This document shows positions 1 to 21,364 of a DNA stretch of 21,364 bases, piece after piece. Made by a program: the position numbers and the translations under genes. Under the pieces are notes generated by a model. It saw only the letters and a program-made list of their open reading frames with translations, had not been told where the DNA came from and did no database searches. Location: positions 1 to 21,364 of the IMG/VR virus record IMGVR_UViG_3300008448_000791. One strand, given 5' to 3'. The stretch comes from a virus. Position 1 is the first letter of the stretch; each line of letters starts with the position of its first letter.

Positions 1-1
1 T

Positions 2-592
2 GATGCTGTTGGCACTGGTCAACGTTTTAGCCATCTTATGGCTGTTGCTCCAAATGCTTCTTCGTCTATCATCATGGGAAATACTAGCCCTAGTATCGAA
101 CCTTATCGTGCTAACGCTTATCGTCAGGACACTTTATCGGGCTCATCATTAGCCAAAAACAAGTGGCTTGACAGGATCATCAAAAGTGTAGTAAAATCAG
201 ATGATGAATATCAGACAGTCTGGTCTAGCATTATTGCAAATGATGGTAGTGTACAGCACTTAGATATTCTAGATGATTGGACTAAAGACGTATTCAAGAC
301 TTCTATGGAGATTGACCAACGTTGGTTAGTTAATCATGCCGCAGATAGACAAGAGTATATCGATCAAGCACAGTCATTGAATCTATTCTTCCGACCTGAT
401 GTGAACATCATGTATCTACATGCAGTACACTTTCAAGCATGGAAGCAAGGCCTCAAAACATTGTACTACTGTCGTTCAGAGAAGATTGGTAAAGCAGACA
501 AGGTATCAAAACGCATTGAGCGTGAAGTAATTAAAGAACTCGACATGAAAGCACTCATCGATGGTGATGCATGTCTCGCATGTGAAGGATAA
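2..592 (+). CDS. nrdA: Ribonucleoside-diphosphate reductase alpha subunit, C-terminal part (5' end outside window)
   Basis: This is the end of the large catalytic subunit of class I ribonucleotide reductase, which makes deoxyribonucleotides for phage DNA synthesis. The frame is open from base 2, so the gene enters from the left and is not a short gene starting at the ATG at 38. The segment PNASSSIIMGNTSPSIEP is the characteristic late NrdA motif. LKTLYYCRSEK carries the paired tyrosines used in radical transfer. The chain ends in CLACEG, a C-terminal cysteine pair of the kind that re-reduces the active-site disulfide. Here the pair is CxxC, whereas as I recall the E. coli protein has four residues between the two. 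The gene is followed after 2 nt by a thioredoxin, the expected electron donor to that pair. Family assignment is very secure. Confidence 0.95.
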   Translation, partial: DAVGTGQRFSHLMAVAPNASSSIIMGNTSPSIEPYRANAYRQDTLSGSSLAKNKWLDRIIKSVVKSDDEYQTVWSSIIANDGSVQHLDILDDWTKDVFKTSMEIDQRWLVNHAADRQEYIDQAQSLNLFFRPDVNIMYLHAVHFQAWKQGLKTLYYCRSEKIGKADKVSKRIEREVIKELDMKALIDGDACLACEG

Positions 593-594
593 AA

Positions 595-837
595 ATGAAA
601 GTACTTAGATTTACAGCATCATGGTGTCAGCCATGTAAGATGTTAGCAAAGACATTAGAAGACGTTGATACTCAAATTCCAATTGAAGTTATTGACATTG
701 ATGAGAATCAACAAATCGCAATGGACTATGGCATTCGTGGTGTCCCAACTTTAGTGATGATAGATGGTGACATTGAAGTTAAACGATTCTCTGGCATGAA
801 AATGAAAAATGAAATAGAAACTTGGTTAGGAGCTTAA
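595..837 (+). CDS. Thioredoxin-like protein (80 aa)
   Basis: A small thiol-disulfide oxidoreductase likely to reduce ribonucleotide reductase. The N-terminal strand leads into FTASWCQPCKML, the thioredoxin WCxPC active site (cysteines near residues 11 and 14). The cis-proline motif GVPTLVM lies near residue 50 and a GMKMKNEIETWL helix closes the fold. At 80 residues it is shorter than cellular thioredoxins (about 105) and close in size to the T4 NrdC protein. It lies between nrdA and nrdB with 2 nt and 0 nt spacings, so it is co-transcribed with its probable partner. The fold and active site are clear. The exact reductant role is inferred from context. Confidence 0.9.
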   Translation: MKVLRFTASWCQPCKMLAKTLEDVDTQIPIEVIDIDENQQIAMDYGIRGVPTLVMIDGDIEVKRFSGMKMKNEIETWLGA

Positions 838-1146
838 ATGGAATTCTCAACCTCAGACGTAATATTTTTAGTTGTATTGTCAATTTATTTCTTATTCAGA
901 GATTTGAAAAAACGATTTCAAGTAAGAGAAAATGAAATTGATAAAGTTCTTGCTGAAGCGGAACAAGTTAAATATAAAAATATGGTAAGAGAAGTTATGT
1001 TTTGCAAGAGTGAAATCGTTGAAGGACAAATTTTTGTCTACGAAAAAGACACGAATGCATTCATCACACAACAGCCTAACGTTGAAAGTATGTTTAAATA
1101 TTTTATAAACAATTACCCAAACAGAAGAATACAATTCGGAGAATAA
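838..1146 (+). CDS. Small membrane-anchored protein of unknown function
   Basis: I do not recognise this 102-residue protein. Residues about 7-19 (DVIFLVVLSIYFLF) form one N-terminal membrane segment, followed by a charged helical stretch (DLKKRFQVRENEIDKVLAEAEQ) that could be a short coiled coil. A small globular part (FCKSEIVEGQIFVYEKDTNAFITQQ) follows, where a strand pair seems likely. It starts directly after the thioredoxin stop and is followed by nrdB after 7 nt, so it belongs to the nrd transcript. A topology with the C-terminal part in the cytoplasm is my inference from the positive DLKKR after the membrane segment. No function can be assigned. Confidence 0.75.
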   Translation: MEFSTSDVIFLVVLSIYFLFRDLKKRFQVRENEIDKVLAEAEQVKYKNMVREVMFCKSEIVEGQIFVYEKDTNAFITQQPNVESMFKYFINNYPNRRIQFGE

Positions 1147-1153
1147 TAAAAAA

Positions 1154-2149
1154 ATGAGTGCAACAAAAGTAAAAAGTAATTTAATGGATGGCAGAGATGC
1201 GTTCAAGCCATTTAATTATCCGTGGGCGTATGATGCTTGGCTGAAGCACGAACAGAGTCATTGGCTACACACAGAAGTACCAATGGCTGAAGATGTGAAA
1301 GATTGGAAGAAAAAATTAACAGCAGAAGAGAAACATTTTCTCACAAACATTTTTCGTTTCTTCACACAAGGTGACATTGACGTTGCTGGTGGCTACGTAA
1401 AAAACTATCTACCATACTTCAAGCAACCAGAAGTAAGAATGATGTTGCTTGGCTTTGCCGCTAGAGAAGCATTGCACGTTGCCGCATACTCACACTTGAT
1501 TGAGACATTAGGTCTGCCAGATACAACATATAACGAATTCTTAGCATATCAAGAAATGAAAGACAAGCACGATTATGTGCTAGACATTTCAAATGCAAAT
1601 GGGGATTTACAATCAACTGCAACCCACATCGCCGTGTTCAGTGCTTTCACTGAAGGGATGCAGTTGTTCTCTTCATTCATTATGCTATTGAACTTTCCAC
1701 GTATGGGTAAGATGAGAGGCATGGGTCAGATTATTACTTGGTCGATTGTTGATGAAACACAACATGCCGAATCTATGATTAAATTATTCAGAACATTCAT
1801 TCAAGAAAATAATGAGATTTGGAATGACGAATTAAAATCTAAGATATATACTATTGCAGAACGAATGGTTGAACTCGAAGACAAGTTTATCGATTTAGCA
1901 TTCGGCATCAATGAAATGGAAGGACTCACTTCAGAAGAAGTTAAGAAGTACATTCGTTACATTGCAGACAGGCGCCTTATCAGTCTTGGACTAAAAGGCA
2001 TTTTTAAAGTTAAGAAGAATCCATTACCTTGGGTTGAAGAAATGATTAATGCACCAACGCATACAAATTTCTTTGAGAACAGAGCAACCGATTATGCAAA
2101 GGGTGCTACAAAAGGTGATTGGGCAGACGTATGGGGTAAAGCGGCATGA
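1154..2149 (+). CDS. nrdB: Ribonucleoside-diphosphate reductase beta subunit
   Basis: The small radical-generating subunit of class I ribonucleotide reductase (331 aa), partner of NrdA upstream. All expected di-iron ligands can be placed: D74 (TQGD), E105 and H108 (AREALH), E167 (FTEGMQ), and E201 and H204 (DETQH). The radical tyrosine is Y112 (HVAAY), seven residues after E105 as in E. coli NrdB. The last three ligands keep a constant offset from E. coli numbering, which supports the alignment. Length is slightly below the E. coli protein. The stop overlaps the next start in an ATGA. nrdA and nrdB are separated here by two small genes instead of being adjacent. Confidence 0.95.
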   Translation: MSATKVKSNLMDGRDAFKPFNYPWAYDAWLKHEQSHWLHTEVPMAEDVKDWKKKLTAEEKHFLTNIFRFFTQGDIDVAGGYVKNYLPYFKQPEVRMMLLGFAAREALHVAAYSHLIETLGLPDTTYNEFLAYQEMKDKHDYVLDISNANGDLQSTATHIAVFSAFTEGMQLFSSFIMLLNFPRMGKMRGMGQIITWSIVDETQHAESMIKLFRTFIQENNEIWNDELKSKIYTIAERMVELEDKFIDLAFGINEMEGLTSEEVKKYIRYIADRRLISLGLKGIFKVKKNPLPWVEEMINAPTHTNFFENRATDYAKGATKGDWADVWGKAA

Positions 2150-2616
2150 AACAATTAACATATGTATTTTTTGCTCTTGCATTGATTGTTGCAGGATTTA
2201 CATTTTCTGCATTGAATGCACACGCACAAACAGGAAAACAAAAGGCTGGAGTTACCTATGACGCTAATATTACTAGGGTTATTGATGGGGATACTGTTGC
2301 GTTTGAAGCGACATTCCTTCCTGATCCACTCAAAAAAGAATTAAGCATTCGTGTCTTTGGTGTTGACACACCAGAAAAAGGACACAGAGCGCAATGCCCA
2401 AAAGAAGATGTGATGGGTAAAAGGGCTACTGAATTCACAAAGCAAGCAGTTATCTCCGCACAGAAACGTCAAATCGTTTTAATGGACTGGGACAAGTATG
2501 GTGGTCGTGTTCTTGGTGATGTTATTTTAGATGGAAAGAGTCTACGTCAAGCATTGATTGCAAATGGTCTAGCCCGTGAATACTACGGCGAGGCTAAAAC
2601 TTCTTGGTGTAATTAA
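2146..2616 (+). CDS. Exported staphylococcal nuclease-like (SNase/thermonuclease) protein
   Basis: A predicted secreted Ca-dependent nuclease of the SNase family (156 aa). Residues 1-27 look like a signal peptide: positive start, a hydrophobic core LTYVFFALALIVAGF, then an AHA|QT cleavage site. The catalytic set is intact: VIDGDT (D47, D49), IRVFGVDTPE (R69, D74, E77) and YGGR (R121), with the same R-to-D-to-E spacing as the staphylococcal enzyme. Two cysteines, C84 and C155, could form a disulfide in the periplasm. It overlaps nrdB by 4 nt, so it is probably made together with the nucleotide-synthesis genes. Degrading extracellular or periplasmic DNA, for salvage or against incoming DNA, is a guess. 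The enzyme class is well supported. Confidence 0.88.
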   Translation: MKQLTYVFFALALIVAGFTFSALNAHAQTGKQKAGVTYDANITRVIDGDTVAFEATFLPDPLKKELSIRVFGVDTPEKGHRAQCPKEDVMGKRATEFTKQAVISAQKRQIVLMDWDKYGGRVLGDVILDGKSLRQALIANGLAREYYGEAKTSWCN

Positions 2617-2627
2617 TTGAGGTGTTC

Positions 2628-2777
2628 ATGTGGAGATTGTGGGCAAAATCATTGGGCGATAAGGCTAGTGCATGTGACAGAGAGTCCGACAAAGTTGCAA
2701 TCATTAGAACATGTATTGTGCTTTGCTATATAATAACGAACCTGTTTATTGTAGCAGGCGTTATAAGGCATTGGTAA
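2628..2777 (+). CDS. 49-residue membrane peptide, conserved-looking, unknown function
   Basis: A short gene filling the gap between the nuclease and the next unknown gene. It has a GAGG ribosome-binding sequence about 6 nt before the ATG. The product begins MWRLWAKSLGDKAS, continues with a charged stretch CDRESDKVAIIRT, and then has one membrane segment (CIVLCYIITNLFIVAGVI) ending in RHW. From memory it resembles a small protein common in T4-like phages of marine bacteria, with the same MWRxWAK start and IRHW end, but I could not check this. It is likely inserted in the inner membrane with a cytoplasmic N terminus. The role is unknown. Confidence 0.7.
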   Translation: MWRLWAKSLGDKASACDRESDKVAIIRTCIVLCYIITNLFIVAGVIRHW

Positions 2778-2794
2778 ATTGGAGAAGATATTAA

Positions 2795-3427: not shown

Positions 3428-3437
3428 GGAGAAAAAA

Positions 3438-3647
3438 ATGACAACATATAACGTATTCTGCGATTCATGTGCGGCTGAGTATTCAGTAACACCATTAGTA
3501 GGAACAGACACACCCCCAACAAATTGCGCCTATTGCGGTTCAACAATAACCGATGATGCAATTTCGGAAAAAGACGAAGAGTGGACAGATGAAGAGTGGG
3601 ACAAACTAATAGAAGATGATGAATGGTCCTCGGAAGACGATAGATGA
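3438..3647 (+). CDS. Small zinc-ribbon protein with acidic tail
   Basis: A 69-residue protein with two CxxC knuckles, FCDSC (residues 8-11) and CAYCG (31-34), separated by about 20 residues. This is the pattern of a single zinc ribbon. The rest is a strongly acidic tail (DEEWTDEEWDKLIEDDEWSSEDD) with repeated D/E-W units. The acidic tail could mimic nucleic acid or contact a basic partner; that is inference. A GGAG site precedes the ATG. The stop overlaps the start of the RuvC-like gene by 4 nt (ATGA), so the two are translationally coupled and may act on the same DNA structure. Confidence 0.8.
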   Translation: MTTYNVFCDSCAAEYSVTPLVGTDTPPTNCAYCGSTITDDAISEKDEEWTDEEWDKLIEDDEWSSEDDR

Positions 3648-8698: not shown

Positions 8699-9319
8699 AT
8701 GGACTTTTTTACAGAAGAGGCAGTACATCATTTAATTCCAAAAGTTAAAAACTTTGACGAATGGTATACTAATCTAAGTGATATTTTACCTGAGTATGAC
8801 ATAGACACACCAAAGCGAGTTGCGGCTTTCATGGCACAATGTGGACATGAGTCTGGTGGATTTACTTTGATGCAAGAGAATTTGAATTATTCTGCAAAAG
8901 GTTTAGTCGGTACTTTTAAGAAATACTTTCCTACTGAAGCCCACGCAAAACCATACGAACGCAAACCAGAAATGATTGCGAATCGTGTATATGCTAATCG
9001 TATGGGTAATGGAGATGAAGCATCTGGAGAAGGCTGGTACTTTCGTGGAAGAGGCATTATACAAATTACAGGAAAGAATAACTACACTAAGTGTTCACAA
9101 TCATTGTTTGAAAGCAATGTACTAGTTGAGAATCCTGATTTGTTGCTTGAAGCAGAGTATGCTATTCATTCTGCTTGTTGGTTCTGGTCTGCGGCTAGAC
9201 TGAATGAACTATCAGATAGTGGAGATATAAAGACAATGACGAAACGAATCAATGGTGGATTCATTGGCTTAGAAGACAGAATCAATCATTACAATCATGC
9301 GATTGAAATTTTAACTTAA
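8699..9319 (+). CDS. GH19 chitinase-type endolysin (peptidoglycan hydrolase)
   Basis: A 206-residue glycoside hydrolase of family 19, which in phages cleaves peptidoglycan for lysis. The catalytic glutamate is E51 in QCGHESGGF. The substrate-groove segment GWYFRGRGIIQITGKNNY (about 117-134) is the family hallmark, and the C-terminal CWFWSAARLNELSD and RINGGFIGLEDRINHY helices match phage members. There is no signal peptide, so release would need a holin or other membrane lesion. GAGGAG precedes the start and a late-like CTAAATA box lies upstream. A virion-associated role is possible because tail genes may be nearby, but endolysin is the simplest reading. Confidence 0.9.
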   Translation: MDFFTEEAVHHLIPKVKNFDEWYTNLSDILPEYDIDTPKRVAAFMAQCGHESGGFTLMQENLNYSAKGLVGTFKKYFPTEAHAKPYERKPEMIANRVYANRMGNGDEASGEGWYFRGRGIIQITGKNNYTKCSQSLFESNVLVENPDLLLEAEYAIHSACWFWSAARLNELSDSGDIKTMTKRINGGFIGLEDRINHYNHAIEILT

Positions 9320-9618: not shown

Positions 9619-10332
9619 TTAATTCCAGTATCTATTATGGTATAAACTTTCCCAATACTTTTTGTTATTGCGATTAACAAAATTTTTAATAAGATATTTG
9701 CCCATACCTAAGTAGCCCATCTTTTTAAATCTACGGCTATCTTGTCCGAAGTGGTGTCGAATAATCTTAAACTTTCTAGGACTATATTTTTTAGACAAGA
9801 AGTAGTCTTCAGATGTTAGTAGGTTTTCAGGAAACCCACCATACTCTTCAAACTTATCTTTACGTGTCAGCATGAATGCGCCAACTGCAAATGGTGAAAA
9901 GAATTTTAGTGTATGATTAATTAGGTTGAATGCAGTAAAGCCAATCTTTGCACGTATATCTTTATCGTAACATTTAATGTTTAGTCCAACAAGATGTAGT
10001 TTCTTTAATTCCATCTTGTTAACAGAATCTTGAATAACTGTATCTTTAAAGAATCGAACATCGGCATCGATGAACAGAATGTAAGGAGTAGTGACTAGTC
10101 TTGCTCCGTTGTTCTTAGCAATAGACACTGGACCACCATCAATGATTTCAACATTCAGTCCAATACTGTTATCTTTAATAACTTGTCTAGTGGCATCGGT
10201 GGAACAGTCAGCAATGATTACTCTAGTGTCACCTATGTTTTGTGAACGTAGTGAATCTAGTAGATGATGAATATAATTTTCTTCATTCTTACACGGCACA
10301 ACAATAGTAATTTTATCACAGAGTTTCATCAT
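9619..10332 (-). CDS. Family 2 glycosyltransferase (GT-A fold)
   Basis: A 237-residue sugar transferase. It has the GT2 start ITIVVPCKNEENYI (8-21), the nucleotide-binding IADCSTDAT (40-48), the metal-binding DAD (89-91 in LFIDADVRF) and a catalytic-base-like ED (175-176 in LTSEDYFL). No membrane segment is evident, so it probably works in the cytoplasm on a nucleotide-sugar donor. It is the last gene of the minus-strand operon and overlaps the LpxH-like gene by 17 nt. That pairing suggests modification of host lipopolysaccharide or another glycolipid, perhaps to alter receptors. The acceptor is unknown. Confidence 0.85.
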   Translation of the reverse strand: MMKLCDKITIVVPCKNEENYIHHLLDSLRSQNIGDTRVIIADCSTDATRQVIKDNSIGLNVEIIDGGPVSIAKNNGARLVTTPYILFIDADVRFFKDTVIQDSVNKMELKKLHLVGLNIKCYDKDIRAKIGFTAFNLINHTLKFFSPFAVGAFMLTRKDKFEEYGGFPENLLTSEDYFLSKKYSPRKFKIIRHHFGQDSRRFKKMGYLGMGKYLIKNFVNRNNKKYWESLYHNRYWN

Positions 10333-11089
10333 TGTCTTTTTCCTTAGTCCAAGTTATAATTTCCCAGCGGCCGTCATGGTGTTCTACAAGTGCTGTACAA
10401 CTTTCAACCCAATCGCCATCATTCATATACATAACGCCATTAATTTCTTTAATCTCTGCGTGGTGTATATGTCCGCATATAACTCCATCAAAACCTCGCT
10501 TCTTACAGTAATTGGCCAAGTTTTCTTCAAACTTGAACATAAAGTCTACTGCCTTTTTAACTCTGTGTTTAAGAAACTTGCTAATGCTAAAGTACCCAAA
10601 ACCCATGCGATGACGTAGCCAATTATACCTACTATTGACAGAAAGGATGAAGTCATATGCTTTATCTCCTAAGAATGCTAACCATGGTGCCAGTTTAGTA
10701 ATGCCGTCAAACAAGTCTCCATGTGTGACTAGATAATGCTTACCATCTGCACCTATATGTTCTATTTGATTGTGAATTTCAACAAGACCAAAACTAAAAC
10801 CATATGGTATCATGGGTCTAAGAAACTCATCGTGATTCCCGGCTATATAAACAACTCTAGTGCCACGTTTTGCGTGACCTAATACTCTACGTACTACATT
10901 GGTATGGCTTTGTTTCCATCGCCACTTGTTTTGTTGTATGCGCCATGCATCAATAATATCACCCACTAGATATAGTGTGTCACAACTGTTATGCTTTAAA
11001 AAGTTATTTAACTTATCTGCTTGACTATCTTTCGTGCCTAAATGCACATCACTCACAAAAATAGAACGATATGTTTTCGTATGAACCAT
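10316..11089 (-). CDS. LpxH-like metallophosphoesterase (UDP-2,3-diacylglucosamine diphosphatase family, COG2908-like)
   Basis: A calcineurin-like phosphoesterase (257 aa) with all metal motifs: D14/H16 (SDVHLG), D44 (GDIIDAW), N85/H86 (GNHDE), H123 (THGD), and H207/H209 (GHIHH). Motif spacing and the extra features YLVGDIIDAWR, VNSRYNWLRHRMG and NDGDWVESCTALVEHHDGRWE match the LpxH2-like subgroup of bacterial enzymes, which act in lipid A synthesis or on related nucleotide-lipids. In several bacteria genes of this subgroup lie next to glycosyltransferases, as here. The protein is complete and nothing looks degenerate. Acquisition from a proteobacterial envelope locus is likely. The true substrate cannot be told from sequence. 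Confidence 0.85.
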   Translation of the reverse strand: MVHTKTYRSIFVSDVHLGTKDSQADKLNNFLKHNSCDTLYLVGDIIDAWRIQQNKWRWKQSHTNVVRRVLGHAKRGTRVVYIAGNHDEFLRPMIPYGFSFGLVEIHNQIEHIGADGKHYLVTHGDLFDGITKLAPWLAFLGDKAYDFILSVNSRYNWLRHRMGFGYFSISKFLKHRVKKAVDFMFKFEENLANYCKKRGFDGVICGHIHHAEIKEINGVMYMNDGDWVESCTALVEHHDGRWEIITWTKEKDNDETL

Positions 11090-11863
11090 TTATCTACCCA
11101 CATAAATTTGTGGTTGGGATTCCTGTCTGCGTTGTTCTTCTGTTTTTGGAATAAATTCGTTGCCGTACTGAGGGTACATTTCTTGTCGCATTTGTGCAAC
11201 CCACATCATGCTGAATCCAAAAACAAAAATTACAAATAAGATAGCAATGCCAATCATTGCCTGATGCATCATTTGTTTTTTCCTAACGGTGCGTCTACGG
11301 TTTTCAATTTCTTCTCTTTGTATTTGTTTTGTGATAAGAATCTTTTGTTCTTTTCCCATCTGAACCATCATCTCTTCAACTTCAGTATACAATGCACCCA
11401 ACTCAGGCGGACTTTGATATACCATCAATTCACGCAACTCAACAGCCATTTGTTCTAATTGTTTACGCATTAACACACGCTGTAACGCACGTTTACCTAA
11501 ACTATCATCACCCTCATAAATTTTAGTCCTTGCTTTTCGTTCTTCTTCTTCAAACACAGCAATACATTTATTTAAGTTATCGTAGTATGTGCCAAGATGA
11601 TTACCAATCTCTGTATAGATGCTAGTTGTATCACCATCACGCTTGTTTAATTCTATTACACGATTTTTCTCTTCTATGTACGCATTACGTTGTGTAGTTG
11701 TTGCTGGTTTATTCTTATGGTTATTTGCAAACTGTTCATCTAAATCTTTGAGTACGCCTCTGATATCTCCAGCGGCACCTTTAATATCTTTATAAAGTTT
11801 GCATCCAGCCTTGACTGCGGAGACTGCTCCGTTCGCTAATGCAAAGAGGGTGATTGGATCCAT
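11090..11863 (-). CDS. Membrane-anchored coiled-coil protein, 'DPIT' family, long member (257 aa)
   Basis: Starts MDPITLFALANGAVSAVKAG, closely like the MIDPITALAGITSAISMVKK start of the 12023-12520 protein. A long charged helical region follows (about 60-195, with EEEERKARTK and IQREEIENRRRTVRKKQ). Then comes one membrane segment, 203-223 (MIGIAILFVIFVFGFSMMWVA), and a polar tail. The two proteins are probably paralogues. I recall relatives in T4-like phages of marine bacteria near structural genes, without known function. A charged coiled coil ending at a membrane would suit a membrane-associated assembly, lysis or exclusion factor, but this is speculation. No clear ribosome-binding site was seen. 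Confidence 0.75.
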   Translation of the reverse strand: MDPITLFALANGAVSAVKAGCKLYKDIKGAAGDIRGVLKDLDEQFANNHKNKPATTTQRNAYIEEKNRVIELNKRDGDTTSIYTEIGNHLGTYYDNLNKCIAVFEEEERKARTKIYEGDDSLGKRALQRVLMRKQLEQMAVELRELMVYQSPPELGALYTEVEEMMVQMGKEQKILITKQIQREEIENRRRTVRKKQMMHQAMIGIAILFVIFVFGFSMMWVAQMRQEMYPQYGNEFIPKTEEQRRQESQPQIYVGR

Positions 11864-11873
11864 TTTTCATGTG

Positions 11874-12026
11874 CTAAAAAGGTAGGTACTTATTAATCAA
11901 TCCATTGACAATTCTGTCTGATAGGTCATCAGGCAAGAATTTAAGGAAGCCTAATAAGTATAATGCTACTGAGCCATAACAAAATATCTTTAAGCAAAGA
12001 TCAAATGTTTTTTGGTATTCGTTCAT
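11874..12026 (-). CDS. 50-residue membrane peptide between the paralogues
   Basis: A short minus-strand frame whose start overlaps the preceding stop (ATGA). The product is MNEYQKTFDLCLKIFCYG, then a hydrophobic segment SVALYLLGFLKFL (about 19-31), then PDDLSDRIVNGLINKYLPF. It fills an otherwise unexplained 159-nt gap in a fully packed operon. One short membrane or amphipathic segment suggests a membrane-bound microprotein, possibly a lysis or exclusion component given its membrane-protein neighbours. The function is unknown. Support is the coupling and spacing, not homology. Confidence 0.65.
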   Translation of the reverse strand: MNEYQKTFDLCLKIFCYGSVALYLLGFLKFLPDDLSDRIVNGLINKYLPF

Positions 12027-12520
12027 CTTCCACACCTAGCACTTGTTTGGCACCATTGTATCAGTTCATAACTACCGATAGCAAATATGAATATGACAAA
12101 TGCAACTGCGCCGATAATCATCGCCCATTCATTTAACTCTTCTTCTTTTTGTTTACGCTTACGTTCTTGTGCGTTATGAAGTCTTAAATCATTAGCATCG
12201 TCTGCATCCATTTCTGCTTGACGAGCCTTGATTTTATTCCATACGTCAATCTTGCCTGTCTGCATAAACAGCAATTTTAACTCTTCTTCGAATGCCCTAG
12301 CTTGTTCTAATGCCATTTCAATCTGAAGTGCGGTTCCCATGTTGGAACCCTTCTTTGTCTTTTTAGCTTCAATCAATGCTTTAGTAGCGGTACTCTTGGC
12401 ATCGAACATCTTGCCGATCATTGGCGCAAGAGAACCTAGGTCATTTGCGACCTTAGCCGCTTTTTTAACCATCGAAATAGCAGACGTAATGCCTGCTAGT
12501 GCCGTGATAGGATCGATCAT
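12023..12520 (-). CDS. Membrane-anchored coiled-coil protein, 'DPIT' family, short member (165 aa)
   Basis: The N terminus MIDPITALAGITSAISMVKKA is clearly like that of the 11090-11863 protein. A charged helical middle includes EQARAFEEELKLLF and AQERKRKQKEEELNEW. A membrane segment at about 133-151 (AMIIGAVAFVIFIFAIGSY) is followed by a short tail with two cysteines (CQTSARC). A GGGAG ribosome-binding site precedes the start. The shared layout (DPIT start, basic coiled coil, C-terminal membrane anchor) suggests gene duplication with divergence. It is coupled to the 50-residue peptide downstream by an ATGA overlap. Cellular role unknown. Confidence 0.78.
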   Translation of the reverse strand: MIDPITALAGITSAISMVKKAAKVANDLGSLAPMIGKMFDAKSTATKALIEAKKTKKGSNMGTALQIEMALEQARAFEEELKLLFMQTGKIDVWNKIKARQAEMDADDANDLRLHNAQERKRKQKEEELNEWAMIIGAVAFVIFIFAIGSYELIQWCQTSARCGR

Positions 12521-12525
12521 TTGTT

Positions 12526-12744
12526 TTACTCCCGTTTACAAATTTCTTTGTGTAATCTATTCGAACAGTCTTTTTTAACCCACTCTATGCAATATACTTT
12601 TCGTTCAAACACATCACCAGTCCATCCCCAACGGACACACTTCATCGTTTCGTTTTTGTTTGTCCTTTCAGCACTCGCATTTAGAATTATTAAACATATT
12701 ATAAAGACAATAATTTTTATAAAACTATTGGAAGCCAAAGCCAT
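12526..12744 (-). CDS. Small secreted cysteine-containing protein (72 aa)
   Basis: The start MALASNSFIKIIVFIICLIILNASA is a probable signal peptide, cut after ASA near residue 25. The mature part is about 47 residues with four cysteines (KCVRW, YCIEW, DCSNR, EICKRE), enough for two disulfides, and is rich in W, K and E. The CxRW/CxEW plus DCSNRLxKEICK pattern is one I recall from other marine phage genomes, with no known role. It overlaps the end of the upstream membrane-protein gene by 28 nt and has AAGG before the start. It is probably a periplasmic effector made with the surrounding envelope genes. Confidence 0.7.
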   Translation of the reverse strand: MALASNSFIKIIVFIICLIILNASAERTNKNETMKCVRWGWTGDVFERKVYCIEWVKKDCSNRLHKEICKRE

Positions 12745-13277
12745 AGACCTTGACTCATTAGTAAGGCGGCAAAAATTCCAACGCCAATACTAGCAAAATA
12801 TAACGACATGCTAACTGCTAAAATGCTTGCCGTCAATAAAACAATTGCAATTTGAAATGCAGAACCAGCAAATGTCATCCAAGGACCAGACTTACGAATT
12901 TGGTCACGTTCCGCTTCAAGTGCCTTTGCTTTAGCAAATAGTTCTTTCTTACCTTCACCTGTTGCAGGCTCAGATTCGTATCTATCAATCTTTGCAGTTA
13001 ACTTGTCTGCTTTATCAAATTGTTTTCTATCGATAGCATCATCTCTAGCCATCTCAGCAAGAGTTTGTTTAACTGATTTTGCTTGATAGAATGCCCAAGT
13101 ATTATTTGCACTAATTGTATTGTTCAATACTTTACTGCTGTTACCACTTGAAACATATGTATTGATTGCAAGCAAAGCGGCTAGAACAGTAATCAACCAT
13201 CCCGCTTTGTCTTTGATATTTGCTTCACGCTCACTACGTGACAATGGTTTCTTTTCTGAAAATACTACTTCTGCCAT
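12717..13277 (-). CDS. DUF4337-like membrane protein (186 aa)
   Basis: First gene of the minus-strand cassette. Membrane segments are near 26-42 (GWLITVLAALLAINTYV), 136-158 (FAGSAFQIAIVLLTASILAVSM) and 160-184. Between the first two lies a charged helical region (LAEMARDDAIDRKQFDKADKL) that would lie outside the membrane. The order of membrane segment, coiled region with a WAFYQAKSVK start, and paired C-terminal segments matches the DUF4337 family as I know it. A strong GGGAGG site precedes the start, and a late-like ATAAATA box lies about 26 nt further upstream. Function unknown. Confidence 0.72.
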   Translation of the reverse strand: MAEVVFSEKKPLSRSEREANIKDKAGWLITVLAALLAINTYVSSGNSSKVLNNTISANNTWAFYQAKSVKQTLAEMARDDAIDRKQFDKADKLTAKIDRYESEPATGEGKKELFAKAKALEAERDQIRKSGPWMTFAGSAFQIAIVLLTASILAVSMSLYFASIGVGIFAALLMSQGLWLWLPIVL

Positions 13278-13414: not shown

Positions 13415-13732
13415 ATGACATTGAGAAAGAAACGTTCCGACCGAAACCATGTGCTGTACAAAGTTACGTGCGTGGATACTGGCGATTCATATGTTGGCTT
13501 GACTGTTGCACAGGGTCAAGCCTATGTCCGTTCTGTTAAAGTTCGCTGGCAAAAACATGTGAGTCGTGCAAAGTGCGAAAACAAAAATTGGGCAATGTGT
13601 ACTGCATTGCGTGAGTTGGCTGGTGCCGCATGGCAATATGAAGTCCTTGAAGTGATTCGTGGACGTAAACCCGCACACCAGCGTGAACGAGAATTGATTG
13701 CCGAATTCGAACCATCGTTGAATACATTTTGA
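13415..13732 (+). CDS. Small GIY-YIG family nuclease (105 aa)
   Basis: A single-domain GIY-YIG endonuclease-like protein. The two strands read VLYKVTC (13-19) and SYVGLT (25-30), the GIY and YIG equivalents. A conserved arginine lies in VKVRWQKH (about 41-48), the metal-binding glutamate is probably E91 or E93 (QRERELIAEF), and SLNTF closes the fold. No extra DNA-binding domain is attached, so it is more like a stand-alone DNA-processing factor than a complete homing endonuclease. From memory a start MTLRKKRSDRNH recurs in other marine phages, supporting this start. It has a strong host-type promoter, so early expression is likely. It may act in degrading host DNA, which is inference. Confidence 0.82.
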   Translation: MTLRKKRSDRNHVLYKVTCVDTGDSYVGLTVAQGQAYVRSVKVRWQKHVSRAKCENKNWAMCTALRELAGAAWQYEVLEVIRGRKPAHQRERELIAEFEPSLNTF

Positions 13733-15453: not shown

Positions 15454-16578
15454 ATGAAATTTTCCAAGATCAATCCTGGCGCTGACGCACAAGCCTTTGG
15501 CACAGAACCTTCTTGGACCAATCAAGAGGAAATCAACAATCTTAAGATTGCTGAGATTCGTGCATTGAATTGGTATAACTATTTTTGTGACAGCAAGCAA
15601 GCAAAAACGTTTGTTGTCGAATACATGGCTAGCATTGGTCGACCGAAGGAAGAAATTTCTTTAGTGTCATCAAGTGACGCATCTATTCCAGTACAACTTG
15701 GTTGGGTAGCACGTATGATGTGTATGGGCTACGAACCATCTGACACATTCAAAAACTTTTTTGTCAAAGAGTTTAAGACTGTCATTGAGACTGCAAAGAA
15801 AACTAAAAAAACAAAAGCGCCCGTTGTCGCAACAACAACTGCACCAGTCGTATCTATTCAAGATCGAATTCGTGAAAAGGCTTCGGATGAAGTCGGTGAG
15901 ATTGAAGGACTTGTTGATGAGTTCATTGCCGGCGGATGTAAGTTCGCACCAGATATGGAATCGTATCTAAAGGGTAAAGAATTATCTGCCGTTGTGCAAA
16001 AGAAAATGTGTGAAGTGTTCATCAAGCGTTCTAAAGAATTTGAAGATGCGATGAATACCTCCGATGCTGATATTAAAGAAGGGTATTCTAATTTCAGTAA
16101 AGTTCAATTACGCAAGATCAAAGAATTTTATGATGCGATTGTTACAGAAACAAATCGTGGTGCAGAAAAGAAACCCACACGTAAAACACGTAAAGTAAAA
16201 GAGAAACCTGCAAGTGTGATTGCCGCTAAAGTGCAATACATGAAAGATTTTGCTGAGTTGAATTTGAAGAGTGTTCTACCAGAAAAGATTGTTGGTGCGA
16301 ATCAGGTGTGGTTGTACAATACCAAAACTAAATTGCTTGGCATGTACAATGCTGACAATGCAAAAGGCCTGACAATCAAAGGTACGACAATTCAAAACTT
16401 TAATACAGAAACGTCCATTGGCAAACGTTTGCGTAAGCCCGAAGTGACTGTTAAGCAAGTACTTGATGGTGGTAAGATTGTGTTGAAAAAACTGTTAGAT
16501 GGATTGACTACCAAGCCCTCCGAATTGACAGGACGCATTAACTCTGATACAATTGTTGTTAGAGTAATAACTGGATAA
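15454..16578 (+). CDS. Conserved-looking phage protein of unknown function (374 aa)
   Basis: A soluble, largely helical protein. The N-terminal region (TEPSWTNQEEINNLKIAEIRALNWYNYFC, about 17-45) and LGWVARMMCMGYEP (about 82-95) resemble an uncharacterised protein I recall from T4-like cyanophages and pelagiphages. A linker rich in K, T, A and P (about 114-130) separates this from a second helical region. A second basic linker (KKPTRKTRKVKEKP, near 240-253) leads to a C-terminal part with NQVWLYNTKTKLLGMYN and later strands. So there are probably three domains joined by flexible linkers. It precedes the exonuclease by 6 nt, suggesting a replication-linked role. Confidence 0.75.
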   Translation: MKFSKINPGADAQAFGTEPSWTNQEEINNLKIAEIRALNWYNYFCDSKQAKTFVVEYMASIGRPKEEISLVSSSDASIPVQLGWVARMMCMGYEPSDTFKNFFVKEFKTVIETAKKTKKTKAPVVATTTAPVVSIQDRIREKASDEVGEIEGLVDEFIAGGCKFAPDMESYLKGKELSAVVQKKMCEVFIKRSKEFEDAMNTSDADIKEGYSNFSKVQLRKIKEFYDAIVTETNRGAEKKPTRKTRKVKEKPASVIAAKVQYMKDFAELNLKSVLPEKIVGANQVWLYNTKTKLLGMYNADNAKGLTIKGTTIQNFNTETSIGKRLRKPEVTVKQVLDGGKIVLKKLLDGLTTKPSELTGRINSDTIVVRVITG

Positions 16579-18089: not shown

Positions 18090-18106
18090 TTTATTGAGAG
18101 TATATT

Positions 18107-18706
18107 ATGAAAAAAGAATTGGACGAAGCACTAGTAGCAAAGTACCCAAAGATTTTTAAGTATCGTCATGCCCCAATGACACACACCGCTATGTGTTGGG
18201 GTTTTGATTGTGGTGATGGTTGGTACAACATCATTGATGTATTGTGTTCAAACATTCAACATCACGTGGATCAAAGACGTAAAGAACGTGCAAGAGTATT
18301 GAAATTCAATCGTGCGTTGAAACGTGCATTGGCTGGAGACACACGCCCACTTCAAATGAATTTTACATTTGGTAATAAAACAGAACCAGATGAATGGGCG
18401 ATTGAACATTCTAGCAAAGCAATTGTAAAAGGAGAGTTCAGAGAAGTTCCTCCACATATGCCACACATCACAGCAAGTCAAGTGAAAGAAAAGTTTGGCG
18501 GATTGCGATTCTATACAAATGGTTTTACAGATACAATTGATGGAATGATTCGTATGGCTGAGTCCATGTCATATCGTACATGTGAAGTGTGTGGTAGTCC
18601 TGGTCGTTCAAATAACTACGGATGGATTTCAACATTGTGCGATACCCATCGATTAGAACGAGGTGAGAAATTGCCGCAAAACGAGGAACTAGAGTCCGAA
18701 GATTGA
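18107..18706 (+). CDS. Zinc-binding-looking protein of unknown function, widespread type (199 aa)
   Basis: The N-terminal part contains KYPKIFKYRH and MCWGFDCGDGWYNIIDVLCSNIQHHV (about 29-54), a pattern I recall in many phage and bacterial hypothetical proteins. The C-terminal part has CEVCG (about 158-162) and LCDTH (about 177-181), which together look like a zinc site, and a preceding VKEKFGGLRFYTNG. No enzymatic motif is recognised. A ribosome-binding sequence GAGAG precedes the start. It is the last gene of the operon, ending just before a clear terminator. Confidence 0.78.
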   Translation: MKKELDEALVAKYPKIFKYRHAPMTHTAMCWGFDCGDGWYNIIDVLCSNIQHHVDQRRKERARVLKFNRALKRALAGDTRPLQMNFTFGNKTEPDEWAIEHSSKAIVKGEFREVPPHMPHITASQVKEKFGGLRFYTNGFTDTIDGMIRMAESMSYRTCEVCGSPGRSNNYGWISTLCDTHRLERGEKLPQNEELESED

Positions 18707-18733
18707 ATACCGAAGTACTAATACCCCTTTTCG

Positions 18734-18755
18734 AGCCGTTTTAGACGGCTTTTTT
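18734..18755 (+). terminator. Rho-independent terminator
   Basis: AGCCGT (18734-18739) and ACGGCT (18745-18750) form a perfect 6-bp stem with a 5-nt loop, followed by six T. It ends the operon starting at 15083 and separates it from the next promoter module. Confidence 0.9.
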
Positions 18756-18775
18756 GTTGTTTTCCAGCAACAAAA
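18752..18775 (+). repeat. Hairpin of promoter module, copy 2
   Basis: TTTTGTTG (18752-18759) and CAACAAAA (18768-18775), 8-bp stem with an 8-nt loop TTTTCCAG. The left arm overlaps the terminator T-run. The trailing GCCAAAATAGTTG leads directly into the -35 box, with 17 nt between the CAAC core and the -35. Confidence 0.7.
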
Positions 18776-18788
18776 GCCAAAATAGTTG

Positions 18789-18816
18789 TTGACGTACCTA
18801 CCGAACCGTGTATAAT
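18789..18816 (+). promoter_or_regulatory. Sigma70-type promoter of the first early-gene block
   Basis: TTGACG (18789-18794) and a perfect TATAAT (18811-18816), 16 nt apart. The spacer and downstream bases (CCGAACCGTG, then ATTCTGT) are shared with the promoter at 20313-20340, showing common origin. Confidence 0.75.
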
Positions 18817-18852
18817 AGATTCTGTAGTGAGTAAGATTAATAGGAGATTTAG

Positions 18853-18933
18853 ATGCTTACAGTTTTGATGATTTTTACAGTAATAGTTTTGTTCGGTGCC
18901 GCTGTTAGTGGTTCTGTTACGACCCTCGGCTGA
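18853..18933 (+). CDS. 26-residue hydrophobic membrane microprotein
   Basis: A tiny open frame immediately downstream of a strong promoter, with a TAGGAG ribosome-binding site 7 nt before the ATG. The product is MLTVLMIFTVIVLFGAAVSG plus a short SVTTLG tail, almost all of it a single membrane helix. It is the first translated unit of this early transcript, so it should be made in quantity. Peptides of this size in phages can modify host membrane proteins, but no target is known. It is too short for homology. Support is the signal context only. Confidence 0.6.
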   Translation: MLTVLMIFTVIVLFGAAVSGSVTTLG

Positions 18934-18956
18934 TTTTAATTTTTAAGGAAAAGAAA

Positions 18957-19289
18957 ATGATTGACGGATTTAACGAATACCTCGAATGCATCAAAGCTGA
19001 CTATGTTAAATGGCATGGTGACAATCCTTCTGAAATTCAAAAAGCAATGGCACAAGAATTTTGCGATTCCTTGTCCTATGAAGTTGGTCGTAGTTATATC
19101 AAAGTAATTACTGGTCGTGCTGGTAGCGGTCGTTCCGTGCATTCGTTTGTTTGTCTCCGTGACATGGGCAAATTCACCAAAGGCGACATTTTGAAAGCGG
19201 CTGGTTGGTCGGCTCCTGCAAAGAATTTTGCCCGTGGTAACACGATGGCACGGACTTTCCAGAACGTTCGTTGGATGGGGGCAATGTGA
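18957..19289 (+). CDS. Unknown small early protein, 'VHSF...GDILKAAGW' type (110 aa)
   Basis: A soluble protein with the run ECIKADYVKWHGD (about 10-22), RSYIKVITGRAG (45-56), VHSFVCLRDMGKFTKGDILKAAGWSAPAKNFARGN (61-95) and a closing VRWMGAM. The 'SVHSF....KF..GDILKA..W.APA.NFARGN' pattern is one I recall in many phage hypothetical proteins, function unknown. The last part is basic, which may indicate nucleic-acid binding. TTAAGGAAAAGAAA precedes the start. It is the second gene after the promoter at 18789. Expression is expected early. Confidence 0.75.
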   Translation: MIDGFNEYLECIKADYVKWHGDNPSEIQKAMAQEFCDSLSYEVGRSYIKVITGRAGSGRSVHSFVCLRDMGKFTKGDILKAAGWSAPAKNFARGNTMARTFQNVRWMGAM

Positions 19290-19304
19290 ATACCAAAGTA
19301 TTCA
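19287..19304. repeat. Perfect 7-bp inverted repeat at the stop codon of the 18957 gene
   Basis: TGAATAC (19287-19293) and GTATTCA (19298-19304) with the loop CAAA. The first three bases are the stop codon. A similar unpaired sequence, TGAATACCGAAGTACT, follows the stop of the 18107 gene at 18704. It sits just before the third promoter module. No T-run follows, so a terminator is unlikely. Confidence 0.6.
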
Positions 19305-19320
19305 GTTGCAAAAAAACAAC
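19305..19320 (+). repeat. Hairpin of promoter module, copy 3
   Basis: GTTG (19305-19308) and CAAC (19317-19320) with an 8-nt, A-rich loop. The arms are only 4 bp here, the shortest of the four copies. CGAAAATAGTTG follows and the -35 box begins exactly 17 nt after CAAC. Confidence 0.55.
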
Positions 19321-19337
19321 AGAATCGAAAATAGTTG

Positions 19338-19365
19338 TTGACAAGTGTGCCCATTGTGGTATACT
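19338..19365 (+). promoter_or_regulatory. Sigma70-type promoter of the second early-gene block
   Basis: TTGACA (19338-19343) and TATACT (19360-19365), 16 nt apart, with an extended -10 TG (TGGTATACT). The sequence GGTATACTAG is shared with the promoters at 13381 and 15083. Confidence 0.75.
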
Positions 19366-19402
19366 AGAGTCTAGAGATTGAGAAAAGAAAAGGAAATTTG
19401 AA

Positions 19403-19672
19403 ATGCGTACAAAAACTTACATTCAGGGCTTCAAGAATTCACAAAAAATTCGTGTGATGTTTGACGGAATTGGTGTCTACACCACCGTTGCTGGTGTGTC
19501 AAGTGTGTTTGCTACATACACCCATTCACAAGCGGCTAATGATGCTTTGCTCCGTTTGTCTTACATGCGTTACATGGCACAAAAAGATGGTGCGTTAGTT
19601 CCGACTGGTGTTGGCATGACAAGTTACAATACCTCGCAAGTTGGTACGCAAGTTCAAGTTGATTTGATTTAA
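19403..19672 (+). CDS. Unknown small early protein (89 aa)
   Basis: First gene after the promoter at 19338, with an AAAAGGAAA site before the start. The product begins MRTKTYIQGFKNSQKIRVMFDG, continues as an alanine- and aromatic-rich middle (GVSSVFATYTHSQAANDALLRL) and ends with a threonine/glycine/valine-rich tail (GVGMTSYNTSQVGTQVQVDLI). It is soluble and basic at the N terminus. I recognise no domain. Early expression in a block of similar short genes suggests an anti-host or regulatory role, unproven. Confidence 0.68.
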   Translation: MRTKTYIQGFKNSQKIRVMFDGIGVYTTVAGVSSVFATYTHSQAANDALLRLSYMRYMAQKDGALVPTGVGMTSYNTSQVGTQVQVDLI

Positions 19673-19681
19673 GGAAATAAA

Positions 19682-19918
19682 ATGACTACATTATCACATG
19701 ATATCTCTTACGGAATGTTTAGCGAAGTTGGCAACTTAGCCGTTCACGGTGTTGTTGTTGCCGCAGTAACAATGAACCTAACATGGCCAGAAACTTACAA
19801 GTGTCTCAACATGTTAGCCAAAAATGATTACAACAAATTTGGTGAAGCGATGGACACCACAGTTCGTGAGTGTGTCTACAATACTTGTGGTTTTACTTCT
19901 GACTTTTATGGTGCTTAA
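19682..19918 (+). CDS. Unknown small early protein (78 aa)
   Basis: Begins MTTLSHDISYGMFSEVGNLA and includes a helical run VVVAAVTMNLTWPETYKCLNMLA (about 25-47), then a DYNKFGEAMDTTV helix and a C-terminal part with two cysteines (RECVYNTCGF). The start follows TTAAGGAAATAAA, the same ribosome-binding block as the 20109 gene. No domain is recognised. It may be a small helical DNA- or protein-binding factor. It is co-transcribed with the preceding gene. Confidence 0.68.
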   Translation: MTTLSHDISYGMFSEVGNLAVHGVVVAAVTMNLTWPETYKCLNMLAKNDYNKFGEAMDTTVRECVYNTCGFTSDFYGA

Positions 19919-19919
19919 T

Positions 19920-20099
19920 ATGATTACATACAAATTTTATGTTGGTAAAGATGTTTATGAATTCGCCGCAGAGTCTAAACTGAATGCGATGGAAATGTGT
20001 AATCGTCAAGTGATTGATAAGTTGGATTTGCATCCTATGGCTTGGGCTGATGCTGGCCAGAATGCATTTTCGTATCAGTCTGGCAACTTTTTTGATTAA
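19920..20099 (+). CDS. Unknown small early protein (59 aa)
   Basis: I start this at the ATG at 19920, 1 nt after the previous stop. A longer open frame to the left lies inside the neighbouring gene and would mean a 96-nt overlap. The product begins MITYKFYVGKDVYEFAAESK, with a helix LNAMEMCNRQVIDKLDL and a C-terminal PMAWADAGQNAFSYQ. No domain or membrane segment is seen. The translational context suggests re-initiation after the preceding gene. Confidence 0.68.
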   Translation: MITYKFYVGKDVYEFAAESKLNAMEMCNRQVIDKLDLHPMAWADAGQNAFSYQSGNFFD

Positions 20100-20108
20100 G
20101 GAAATAAA

Positions 20109-20291
20109 ATGAAAATCGAAACAGCAATTGGTATTCTGAATAAAGAACGTGAATTTTTAGGTTTGGGTTTCTTGGAGTTATTGCAAGATATCCAACATGA
20201 AGGTAAGATGGTTTACTCTGAAAAGACTATGGAAGCATTTGAACGGTTCATGGTTGATGGTCGCAAGATGTTTGCACCTGTTGCAGAATAA
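20109..20291 (+). CDS. Unknown small early protein (60 aa)
   Basis: Preceded by TTAAGGAAATAAA, identical to the site before the 19682 gene. The product is largely helical: MKIETAIGILNKEREFLGLG, then FLELLQDIQHEGKMVYSEKT, then MEAFERFMVDGRKMFAPVAE. It has no cysteine and no membrane segment. Its last codons overlap the hairpin of promoter-module copy 4, so the stop codon is embedded in that element. Function unknown. Confidence 0.66.
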   Translation: MKIETAIGILNKEREFLGLGFLELLQDIQHEGKMVYSEKTMEAFERFMVDGRKMFAPVAE

Positions 20292-20296
20292 CAACA
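20279..20296 (+). repeat. Hairpin of promoter module, copy 4
   Basis: TGTTG (20279-20283) and CAACA (20292-20296), 5-bp stem, 8-nt loop. The -35 box begins 17 nt after the CAAC core, as in copies 2 and 3, with CGAAAATAGTTG between. Confidence 0.6.
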
Positions 20297-20312
20297 GTAA
20301 CGAAAATAGTTG

Positions 20313-20340
20313 TTGACTTACCCTCCGAACCGTGTATAAT
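20313..20340 (+). promoter_or_regulatory. Sigma70-type promoter of the third early-gene block
   Basis: TTGACT (20313-20318) and perfect TATAAT (20335-20340), 16 nt apart. Its spacer and downstream sequence match the promoter at 18789. Confidence 0.75.
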
Positions 20341-20371
20341 TAATTCTGTTGAGTTGATAAAGGACATTGAA

Positions 20372-20626
20372 ATGAGAACAGCAAGCGAACAAACCCTCTG
20401 GGAAATCCAAGCATACGGTGCTAAGAAATCCGAAATTCTTGAGTCTGTACAAGATTCAATTAGTTTCCAACTTTCTGGTCCTGGTATGGTGATTGCAAGT
20501 TACCTTTCTGATGCACAGGAAGTGATGGAACACGGTAGTGAACGTGCGTTGAATGATGCAAGGCAATATATTAATATTGCAAAAATGTTGATGATGGAAT
20601 TTGAATTAGGTTTTAAGGAAAGATAA
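20372..20626 (+). CDS. Unknown small early protein (84 aa)
   Basis: Starts at the ATG at 20372, 7 nt after AAAGGA. A TTG at 20354 in the same frame would place the ribosome-binding site inside the gene. The product is mainly helical: MRTASEQTLWEIQAYGAKKS, then ILESVQDSISFQLSGPGMVI, then ASYLSDAQEVMEHGSERALN with a C-terminal DARQYINIAKMLMMEFELGF. No known domain is seen. The 'SGPGMVIASYLSDAQE' region looks like a conserved helix cap. It is the first gene after the promoter at 20313. Confidence 0.68.
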   Translation: MRTASEQTLWEIQAYGAKKSEILESVQDSISFQLSGPGMVIASYLSDAQEVMEHGSERALNDARQYINIAKMLMMEFELGFKER

Positions 20627-20627
20627 T

Positions 20628-20822
20628 ATGACTAATTTTGTTACTGTTGCGGATATGATTACCGCTTTGTCTGCCTTGCCGGCTGATGCCCGCTTGGTTG
20701 TGACACAGACTGGTTACTACTGTTATGATGATTTTGCCGATTGTTTTATGCCACGACCTGCTGGCGATGACAACGATGGTACCCCATTGTTTGCAGTAGG
20801 ACATTCTCACCAAAGTTATTAA
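20628..20822 (+). CDS. Unknown small early protein, 'DARLVVTQTGYY' type (64 aa)
   Basis: The pattern VADMITALSALPADARLVVTQTGYYCYDDFADCF (about 7-41), followed by LFAVGHSHQSY at the end, matches a small protein I recall in many phages ('LP.DARVVV.QTGYY.Y..FADVF...I.HS.QSY'). It probably folds as a short alpha/beta domain. It starts 1 nt after the previous stop, and the three cysteine/histidine positions near the end are not a clear metal site. Function unknown; recurring in early phage regions, as I recall. Confidence 0.72.
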   Translation: MTNFVTVADMITALSALPADARLVVTQTGYYCYDDFADCFMPRPAGDDNDGTPLFAVGHSHQSY

Positions 20823-20834
20823 AGGAATAAATAT

Positions 20835-21179
20835 ATGATGATAGTTATCCGCACTCAGTACCACGAAAATTATGGCGCACATGATTGGGATGGTGTGGGT
20901 GAGTGTCCTCAGTATTGGAAAGCCAAAGGCGGTTCAGAGTATAAGATACTTGACGTTCCGCTTAACATAGATTACAATGAGTTTGTGAAGTTCACATTGA
21001 CTGGCATTGAAACGAATACGGATTATTCTAGCGAGTACATGGTCGATTGGTCTATGGAAAGTGATGACTACCTTTCATGGTTTGAGAGGTCTCAGTTACA
21101 GTTTGATGGTGCTATCACTAGCAAAGAACCCACAATGACGTATCAACAAGTTTTGGATAAGCAAAAGGAACTAGCATGA
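20835..21179 (+). CDS. Unknown protein, 'MIVIxTQYxENYGAH' type (114 aa)
   Basis: Begins MMIVIRTQYHENYGAHDWDG, then PQYWKAKGGSEYKILDVPL (about 26-44), an acidic middle (YSSEYMVDWSMESDDYLSWFE) and a polar end with EPTMTYQQVLDKQKELA. Proteins with this start, and often with WKxKGG, occur in many phages and plasmids as I recall, with no known function. The gene has AAAGGA before the start. Two adjacent ATG codons (20835 and 20838) leave the exact start open by one residue. It overlaps the next gene by 4 nt. Confidence 0.75.
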   Translation: MMIVIRTQYHENYGAHDWDGVGECPQYWKAKGGSEYKILDVPLNIDYNEFVKFTLTGIETNTDYSSEYMVDWSMESDDYLSWFERSQLQFDGAITSKEPTMTYQQVLDKQKELA

Positions 21180-21364
21180 GTAAGATGAGCGAGTTGGCTA
21201 TGGAGATTGAAGAGTTGTATCTTCAAGGATACAATGAATTCACGATTGCAACAATGCTTAATATACCAGTAGAATTGGTTGACAATTTTGTTGCAAGTTT
21301 TATGGATGCAGAGTATAATGAAAGCATGGACGGAGATTTTGATTCCGCTATGGCTTCAGCAGGA
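21176..21364 (+). CDS. Unknown small protein, helix-turn-helix-like start (3' end outside window)
   Basis: An open frame overlapping the previous stop (ATGA) and running off the right edge, so only the first 63 residues are seen. The start MSKMSELAMEIEELYLQGYN, then FTIATMLNIPVELVDNFVAS, has the shape of a small helix-turn-helix: 'eI.eLy..G.s...IA..LnIp...V..fv'. This would suit a DNA-binding regulator. The rest is acidic (MDAEYNESMDGDFDSAMAS). The family resembles short phage proteins that I recall starting MxKxxELSxEIEELxxxG. The function is unproven. Confidence 0.7.
   Translation, partial: MSKMSELAMEIEELYLQGYNEFTIATMLNIPVELVDNFVASFMDAEYNESMDGDFDSAMASAG

Follow-up and report, generated by a model that had tools for sequence, protein, structure and literature searches.

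Near-complete, flank-dependent loss of GCWGC and loss of other restriction-type words in a phage clade

The IMG/VR virus record IMGVR_UViG_3300008448_000791 was analysed over its entire length of 21,364 bases (the window). It lacks the word GCWGC (GCAGC or GCTGC), which is also scarce in the clade of phages to which the window belongs, except in the context GGCWGCC. It is highly probable that the clade has lost this and other restriction target words by selection, the agent that we infer being a Type II restriction enzyme of the GCWGC class carried by the hosts.

Absence of GCWGC from the window

A preliminary description of the window, made from its letters, reported that GCAGC and GCTGC are missing while GCCGC and GCGGC occur about 27 times. 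Counting bears this out, with GCAGC 0, GCTGC 0, GCCGC 12 and GCGGC 16 (28 for the last two) in a sequence of 38.2% GC by base counts. A maximal-order Markov model predicts 19.5 GCWGC sites, and the word has the lowest z of all 5-mers. Exchange of synonymous codons among 43 hand-picked open reading frames (ORFs), which preserves the proteins and the overall codon usage, gives an expectation of 23.4±2.9 sites, none of the 1000 shuffles having fewer than 15. GCSGC (GCCGC or GCGGC) is in excess under the same shuffling, with 27 copies observed and 10.0 expected.

Adjacent alanine codons had been described as avoiding A or T at the end of the first codon. This holds strictly: alanine codons placed before a GC-starting codon end in A or T in 0 cases and in G or C in 25, the ratio for all alanine codons being 346:112. 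The example pairs exist, at positions 1-2 bases lower than those originally quoted:

3471, 4551, 8822, 9191 and 9407: starts of GCGGC
13625: start of GCCGC
3471..3475, plus strand: GCGGC, Ala-Ala pair with GCS first
8822..8826, plus strand: GCGGC, Ala-Ala pair with GCS first
13625..13629, plus strand: GCCGC, Ala-Ala pair with GCS first

The window is also devoid of CGCG (0 vs 20.4 expected) and CGWCG (0 vs 8.8), and over its whole length (1..21364) of AAGCTT, AGATCT, TGCGCA and GCATGC. Reduced numbers (observed/expected) are found for GATC (24/75.5), AGCT (10/49.9), GGCC (7/28.6) and CCGG (4/14.8). The missing CGCG and CGWCG and these reduced words had escaped the preliminary description.

Avoidance in related phages

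Megablast of the window against 50,697 phage records gave no match. Five long contigs, 428,444 bases together, were used for comparison. G001 (65,986 bases) is the same virus as the window, with 99.98-100% identity over 17.8 kb, while G002 (150 kb), G003 (88 kb), G004 (67 kb) and G005 (57 kb) have 79.5-84.7% identity to it in their alignable parts. Further relatives were collected in IMG/VR with one conserved gene of the window:

15454..16578, plus strand: conserved phage gene of unknown function, phrog_11903

It yielded 62 related loci, of which 59 entered the tree; L060, L061 and L063 are short pieces and were left out. The deeper forks of this tree are weaker and its root serves for drawing only.

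Elimination is defined here as an observed/expected ratio below 0.1 with at least 15 sites expected, a Markov measure distinct from the index used in PMC6286503. GCWGC is eliminated in this sense from the window (0/19.5), G001 (5/65.7), G003 (8/85.9) and G005 (0/52.8). A return of the word to its expected rate in the longer genome would have spoken against avoidance; the G001 count, 5 vs 65.7-67, lies far under it. Pooled, the five long contigs carry 44 sites vs 458 expected, and their coding DNA 40 vs 486±14 under codon shuffling. Nineteen further contigs, collected around a methyltransferase-like phage gene described below, carry 2 vs 221.

Avoidance is a lineage-specific trait of this clade, as shown by the comparison with related phages that the preliminary description had proposed. 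In the sister group, 54 contigs pooled have 540 GCWGC sites vs 557±15 expected, and the sister phages G411 and G412 have 260/164 and 230/142. Four cultured distant relatives, represented by partial records in stretches of 30-50 kb each, show no avoidance either: Caulobacter phage Cr30 (85/47), Ochrobactrum phage OC (32/34), Pseudomonas phage PA5oct (58/46) and Pelagibacter phage HTVC008M (34/14.3 in its first 30 kb, L209). Within the tree, the loci L039-L042 carry GCWGC (12/31 pooled; 3/10.4 in L039 and 4/9.1 in L040), yet they group with L056 (support 100/100) amid avoiding lineages. Loss of avoidance in L039-L042 is the simpler reading of this placement.

Selection on the DNA word

The view that selection acts against the site itself, and not on protein or codon usage, was put forward in the preliminary description and is now well supported by codon shuffles, depletion in every frame and the ratios of mutation products. 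The coding DNA of the five contigs holds 38, 0 and 2 GCWGC sites in the three reading frames vs 414, 38 and 34 expected. After NGC codons in these contigs, serine is never encoded by AGC nor cysteine by TGC, AGT being used 68 times and TGT 23 times. GCSGC reaches 559 copies in the same coding DNA vs 184±13, a threefold excess. The products expected from C-to-T change of GCWGC are in no clear excess in avoiders over sister phages (1.10 vs 1.17 and 1.18 vs 1.02). Depletion in three frames, GCSGC excess in Ala-Ala pairs and the lack of a clear deamination excess together speak for selection at the DNA level. Avoidance seems to have cost some protein sequence too, since Ala-Ala dipeptides number 518 vs 663 expected in avoiders (22% fewer), compared to 539 vs 568 in sister phages.

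Nine of the 12 GCWGC sites in L039-L042 have aligned avoiders, and at four of these nine all avoiders read GCGGC or GCCGC. At L041:4438 the aligned avoiders (n=18) have 14 GCGGC and 4 GCCGC.

The flank rule

The word avoided is GCWGC outside one flank context, GGCWGCC being spared. All 44 sites remaining in the five long contigs have a G before or a C after, and 27 have both. In the coding DNA of these contigs, the unflanked form HGCWGCD occurs 0 times vs 358.6±11.9 expected from codon shuffling, sites with one flank only about 16 times vs 118, and GGCWGCC 24 times vs 8.8±3.3. Counts over the pooled contigs agree, with 27/15.3 for the G_C flank pair and 0.06-0.35 of expectation for one-sided flanks.

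The rule was recounted in 73 loci (826 kb), 68 from other contigs and 5 being pieces of G001-G005. This count left out L001, a piece of the window, and loci with larger or ordinary GCWGC numbers, namely L039-L042, L057 (2/2.6), L058 (2/2.6), L061 (5/8.7) and L062 (10/8.6). The 24 sites remaining in the 73 loci lie in 13 distinct contexts, one of them also present in G003; each context has G before or C after the word, and 8 of the 13 are GGCWGCC. Sequence likeness reduces the 13 contexts to 10 clusters, for which the chance of finding no unflanked site is about 1.5e-6 (3e-8 counting all 13). Tolerance of GGCWGCC is not seen in the A group (0 vs 6; L115 and L129, pieces of G001 and G002, excluded), where homologous contigs repeat one stretch.

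Two other words show a dependence on flanks. GATC is tolerated if C follows, with the exception of AGATCC (0.20 of expectation). CASTG follows a weaker rule: in the five contigs pooled, DCASTGH is at or below 0.13 of expectation and other flanks are at 0.42-0.66. The flank-dependent loss of CASTG is nearly complete in G002-G005 (0/162, 0/85, 1/64 and 0/59) and stands at 15/66 in G001. The flank rule may reflect either the taste of an enzyme or protection by methylation.

Other purged words

GCWGC is accompanied by many other words. Among words with at least 12 expected copies, each long avoider contig has 10-15 independent palindromic words at or below 0.15 of expectation, of 82-95 tested, and 16-20 non-palindromic ones of 2104-2451; 15 palindromic words are nearly gone from the single 150-kb contig. 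The same count of palindromic words is 0 in Cr30, 0 in PA5oct, 2 in OC, 7 in G411, 7 in G412 and 8 in the 30 kb of HTVC008M. The near-absent words of HTVC008M include TCGA (0/34) and CASTG (1/41).

In the five contigs pooled the losses extend to CGCG (0/417), AGATCT (0/189), AAGCTT (0/142), TGCGCA (0/113) and GCATGC (1/120), while GAATTC, GGATCC, GTTAAC and GATATC are not avoided. The set varies from one lineage to the next. G003 lacks AGCT (0/172). CGCG is not avoided in L049 (8/10) or in the B group (114/125). L039-L042 have CGWCG (7/12) and TGCGCA (10/7), with CGCG (1/22) and GAGCT (0/14) scarce. Avoidance of single words is lost independently by lineage and the trait is modular. Such word-by-word gain and loss is expected of changing host restriction systems. 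A more distant lineage, L054 and L055, has another purged set, with GATC 0/47, AGCT 0/36 and GGCC 0/27.

Candidate methyltransferase and nuclease genes

A putative DNA methyltransferase of 533 amino acids is encoded by these phages, and a small ORF of the window has a GIY-YIG-like product:

L112:301-1902 (G001) and L113:1495-3096 (G002): putative DNA methyltransferase, 533 amino acids, with motifs DPSSGWGG and TSPPY and a match to DNA-methyltransferase PHROGs
13415..13732, plus strand: small GIY-YIG-like ORF, 21.1 bits, under the cut-off of 22.6

Relatives of the 533-amino-acid protein were found in 271 IMG/VR stretches, 80 of which were kept, while the matches in 23 phage records are all distant and partial. 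The PF01555 profile matched in 2 of 12 contigs, both times under the family cut-off, while PF00145 (C5-methyltransferase) gave no match in the 12 phage contigs and solved structures gave no sequence match. The protein is a candidate modifier. Its family is common to avoiders and to sister phages with normal GCWGC counts.

The window also encodes an SNase nuclease-family protein. The GIY-YIG-like gene region is retained in L039, L040, L049 and L054. The ORF appears an unlikely driver of avoidance because L039 and L040 have GCWGC sites. The suggestion in the preliminary description that a phage nuclease or modification enzyme uses the word is weakened by the presence of the methyltransferase in normal-count sisters and of the GIY-YIG-like region in these two loci, within an annotation that covers part of the genes of the long contigs.

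Restriction and the alternatives

A restriction-modification target, as first proposed, remains the best reading. GCWGC does not stand alone: it is one of many purged words, and it is tolerated as GGCWGCC. It is the core word of the BbvI, TseI and ApeKI systems, whose enzymes have GCWGC specificity. An orthodox Type II enzyme of this class, present in past and present hosts, would cleave GGCWGCC weakly if at all. Every cleavage would lower phage survival, so that mutants losing a site would win until few sites were left, and those remaining would be the ones whose flanks protect. The remaining purged words would then testify to further restriction systems in the population of hosts.

Several observations weigh against restriction by such an enzyme. 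Avoidance is incomplete in G002 (21/176.9, or 0.12) and G004 (10/65.4, or 0.15), the list of purged words for G004 not including GCWGC. Some single sister contigs have no GCWGC (0/8 in L153, 0/4 in L162), so the border of the clade is not sharp. The purged words of L064-L087 include the non-palindromic GAGCT/AGCTC, CCCAG/CTGGG (49/301) and GACATC/GATGTC (15/167), a poorer fit to orthodox Type II enzymes. The eight palindromic words purged in HTVC008M indicate that multi-site purging is not unique to the clade. We know of no enzyme that accounts for the tolerated GGCWGCC context, and neither a host nor a GCWGC enzyme was found through tmRNA type, tag pattern or an accessory gene (see below). 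At the other five of the nine L039-L042 sites with aligned avoiders, these differ in other ways, and at L040:1546 the difference, GTTGC in 8 of 10 avoiders, is deamination-like.

This last site would suit a loss by mutation, in which cytosine methylation at GCWGC is followed by deamination without any cutting. Environmental bacteria do have GCWGC methyltransferases listed without a partner endonuclease, though with N4-methylcytosine (m4C) as the mark (PMC6329791, entries cited here), and the 22% deficit of Ala-Ala pairs in avoiders would also be compatible with it. The process is nevertheless very improbable: one site of nine fits, the C-to-T products lack a clear excess, and deamination of the site cannot yield GCSGC, in which the changed base is the central A/T and whose count rises to 559 vs 184. 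Ordinary codon, codon-pair or dinucleotide bias is the hardest of all to credit and is rejected. Most GCWGC sites would be expected in Ala-Ala pairs (frame 0), on which codon-pair bias could act, but the codon shuffles give 23.4±2.9 sites for the window and 486±14 for the five contigs, all three frames are depleted, and sister counts are normal or raised. Bias thus does not predict near-zero counts, a possibility that the preliminary description had named as fatal to its claim. Phages with sequence-specific nucleases that shred host DNA exist, and one of this clade that cuts at GCWGC would lead the phage to purge its own sites; the weakly GIY-YIG-like protein and the SNase protein would be the candidates in the window. 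We consider this improbable. The GIY-YIG-like region occurs in L039 and L040, which bear GCWGC sites, though below expectation, and the different words purged by lineage (AGCT in G003, GATC in L054 and L055, CGCG retained in L049 and the B group) would call for many phage nucleases.

Restriction being the preferred explanation, the spared GGCWGCC could still be due to protection: a phage or host methyltransferase would mark C in a GCC- or CC-like context and shield GGCWGCC on both strands. Full tolerance does need both flanks, GATC is tolerated before C save in AGATCC, and the 533-amino-acid protein with its DPSSGWGG and TSPPY motifs and PHROGs match would be at hand. GGCC, CCGG and CCCAG contain CC, yet they are avoided; the methyltransferase family also occurs in sister phages, and the protein is a putative methyltransferase with a PF01555 score below the cut-off. 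Such shielding is on balance unlikely. It is possible, if only tentatively proposed, that the clade records an undescribed restriction specificity, namely a nuclease with a GCWGC core that is blind to GGCWGCC and a partner with a CASTG core whose main target is DCASTGH; the blindness would come either from a flank rule of the enzyme or from a phage methyltransferase shielding CC-flanked sites. If this were true, flank-resolved depletion could read the restriction repertoire of uncultured hosts, flank rules included.

Relation to known systems

For Type II systems, the elimination of sites by phages is an established finding, and GCWGC was examined by Rusinov et al. 2018, who report CB<1 in 66.3% of genomes paired with this site in the Type IIM set (PMC6286503, in the passages cited). 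The clade is like the non-temperate double-stranded DNA phages treated in those passages in having lost almost every copy of a short palindromic word of the Type II kind. It is unlike the cases given there in the joint purging of 10-15 words, in a set that varies by relative and in the dependence of depletion on flanks. Restriction-site elimination is a known strategy of which this case is unusually rich, with a flank-dependent rule. It illustrates the lengths to which a phage lineage in nature can go in evading restriction. The purged-word list and the GCWGC flank rule amount to a concrete prediction on the enzymes of the hosts, and they point to phage metagenomes as a source from which restriction repertoires might be inferred. 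In some groups of phages, purging at several sites may be a common trait.

GCWGC overlaps the recognition word of the GCNGC enzymes, to which the modification-dependent BisI family belongs. A GCNGC or BisI-type target was rejected, as the GCSGC excess (559 vs 184) means that not all central bases are avoided.

The methyltransferase M.AbaBS3I belongs to environmental Chloroflexi that we take to originate from a freshwater lake. It exemplifies m4C methylation of GCWGC in uncultured bacteria and is listed without a restriction-modification partner, its hosts also methylating TTAA and GANTC (PMC6329791, entries cited here). The phages avoid neither word (TTAA 2893/2810; GANTC 81/91.5 in the window), and Chloroflexi with GCWGC/TTAA/GANTC methylation are not supported as hosts. 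A literature search on restriction site avoidance in freshwater phages found nothing; PMC11094077 was matched via a primer sequence only and set aside.

Host clues

G002-G005 each encode a permuted transfer-messenger RNA (tmRNA) along with 23-25 transfer RNA genes:

L065:4378-4767, L076:15847-16242, L081:15979-16456 and L087:9807-10195: permuted tmRNAs of G002-G005

Two of the remaining GCWGC sites lie inside tmRNAs, at L065:4473 and L081:16074, both reading GGCTGCC. The tag peptide is ANDSRFALAA, and ANDSQFALAA in G005. The G002 tmRNA scores best in its Rfam clan with beta_tmRNA, the betaproteobacterial type. The tag-peptide pattern was found in 0 of 398 genomes from one proteobacterial phylum and in 0 of 1 in a separate search. 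A phage tmRNA can stem from another group than the host (PMC9004378, in the part cited).

One accessory gene has relatives at 21 loci, with 50-53% identity, whose record titles are mostly of Acetobacteraceae. Some titles give a genus, which we assume to belong to that family. These relatives are too distant to designate a host, and they point elsewhere than beta_tmRNA.

Gene content of the window

The annotation of distant relatives indicates that the virus is probably a T4-like phage, and probably lytic. It is presumably of aquatic origin, judging from the IMG sample numbers. Recognizable products and the gene arrangement are as follows:

Window: part of a reductase large subunit, ATP-dependent protease, endolysin, exonuclease and RuvC-like protein (basis PHROGs)
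Window: reductase small subunit (basis tblastn)
Within 9619-13277, minus strand: glycosyltransferase 2, metallophosphoesterase and DUF4337 protein
11090-11863 and 12023-12520, minus strand: two proteins whose N-termini look alike to the eye, neither of them matched by Pfam

The segment 9619-13277 is a minus-strand stretch, the rest of the window being mostly plus-strand.

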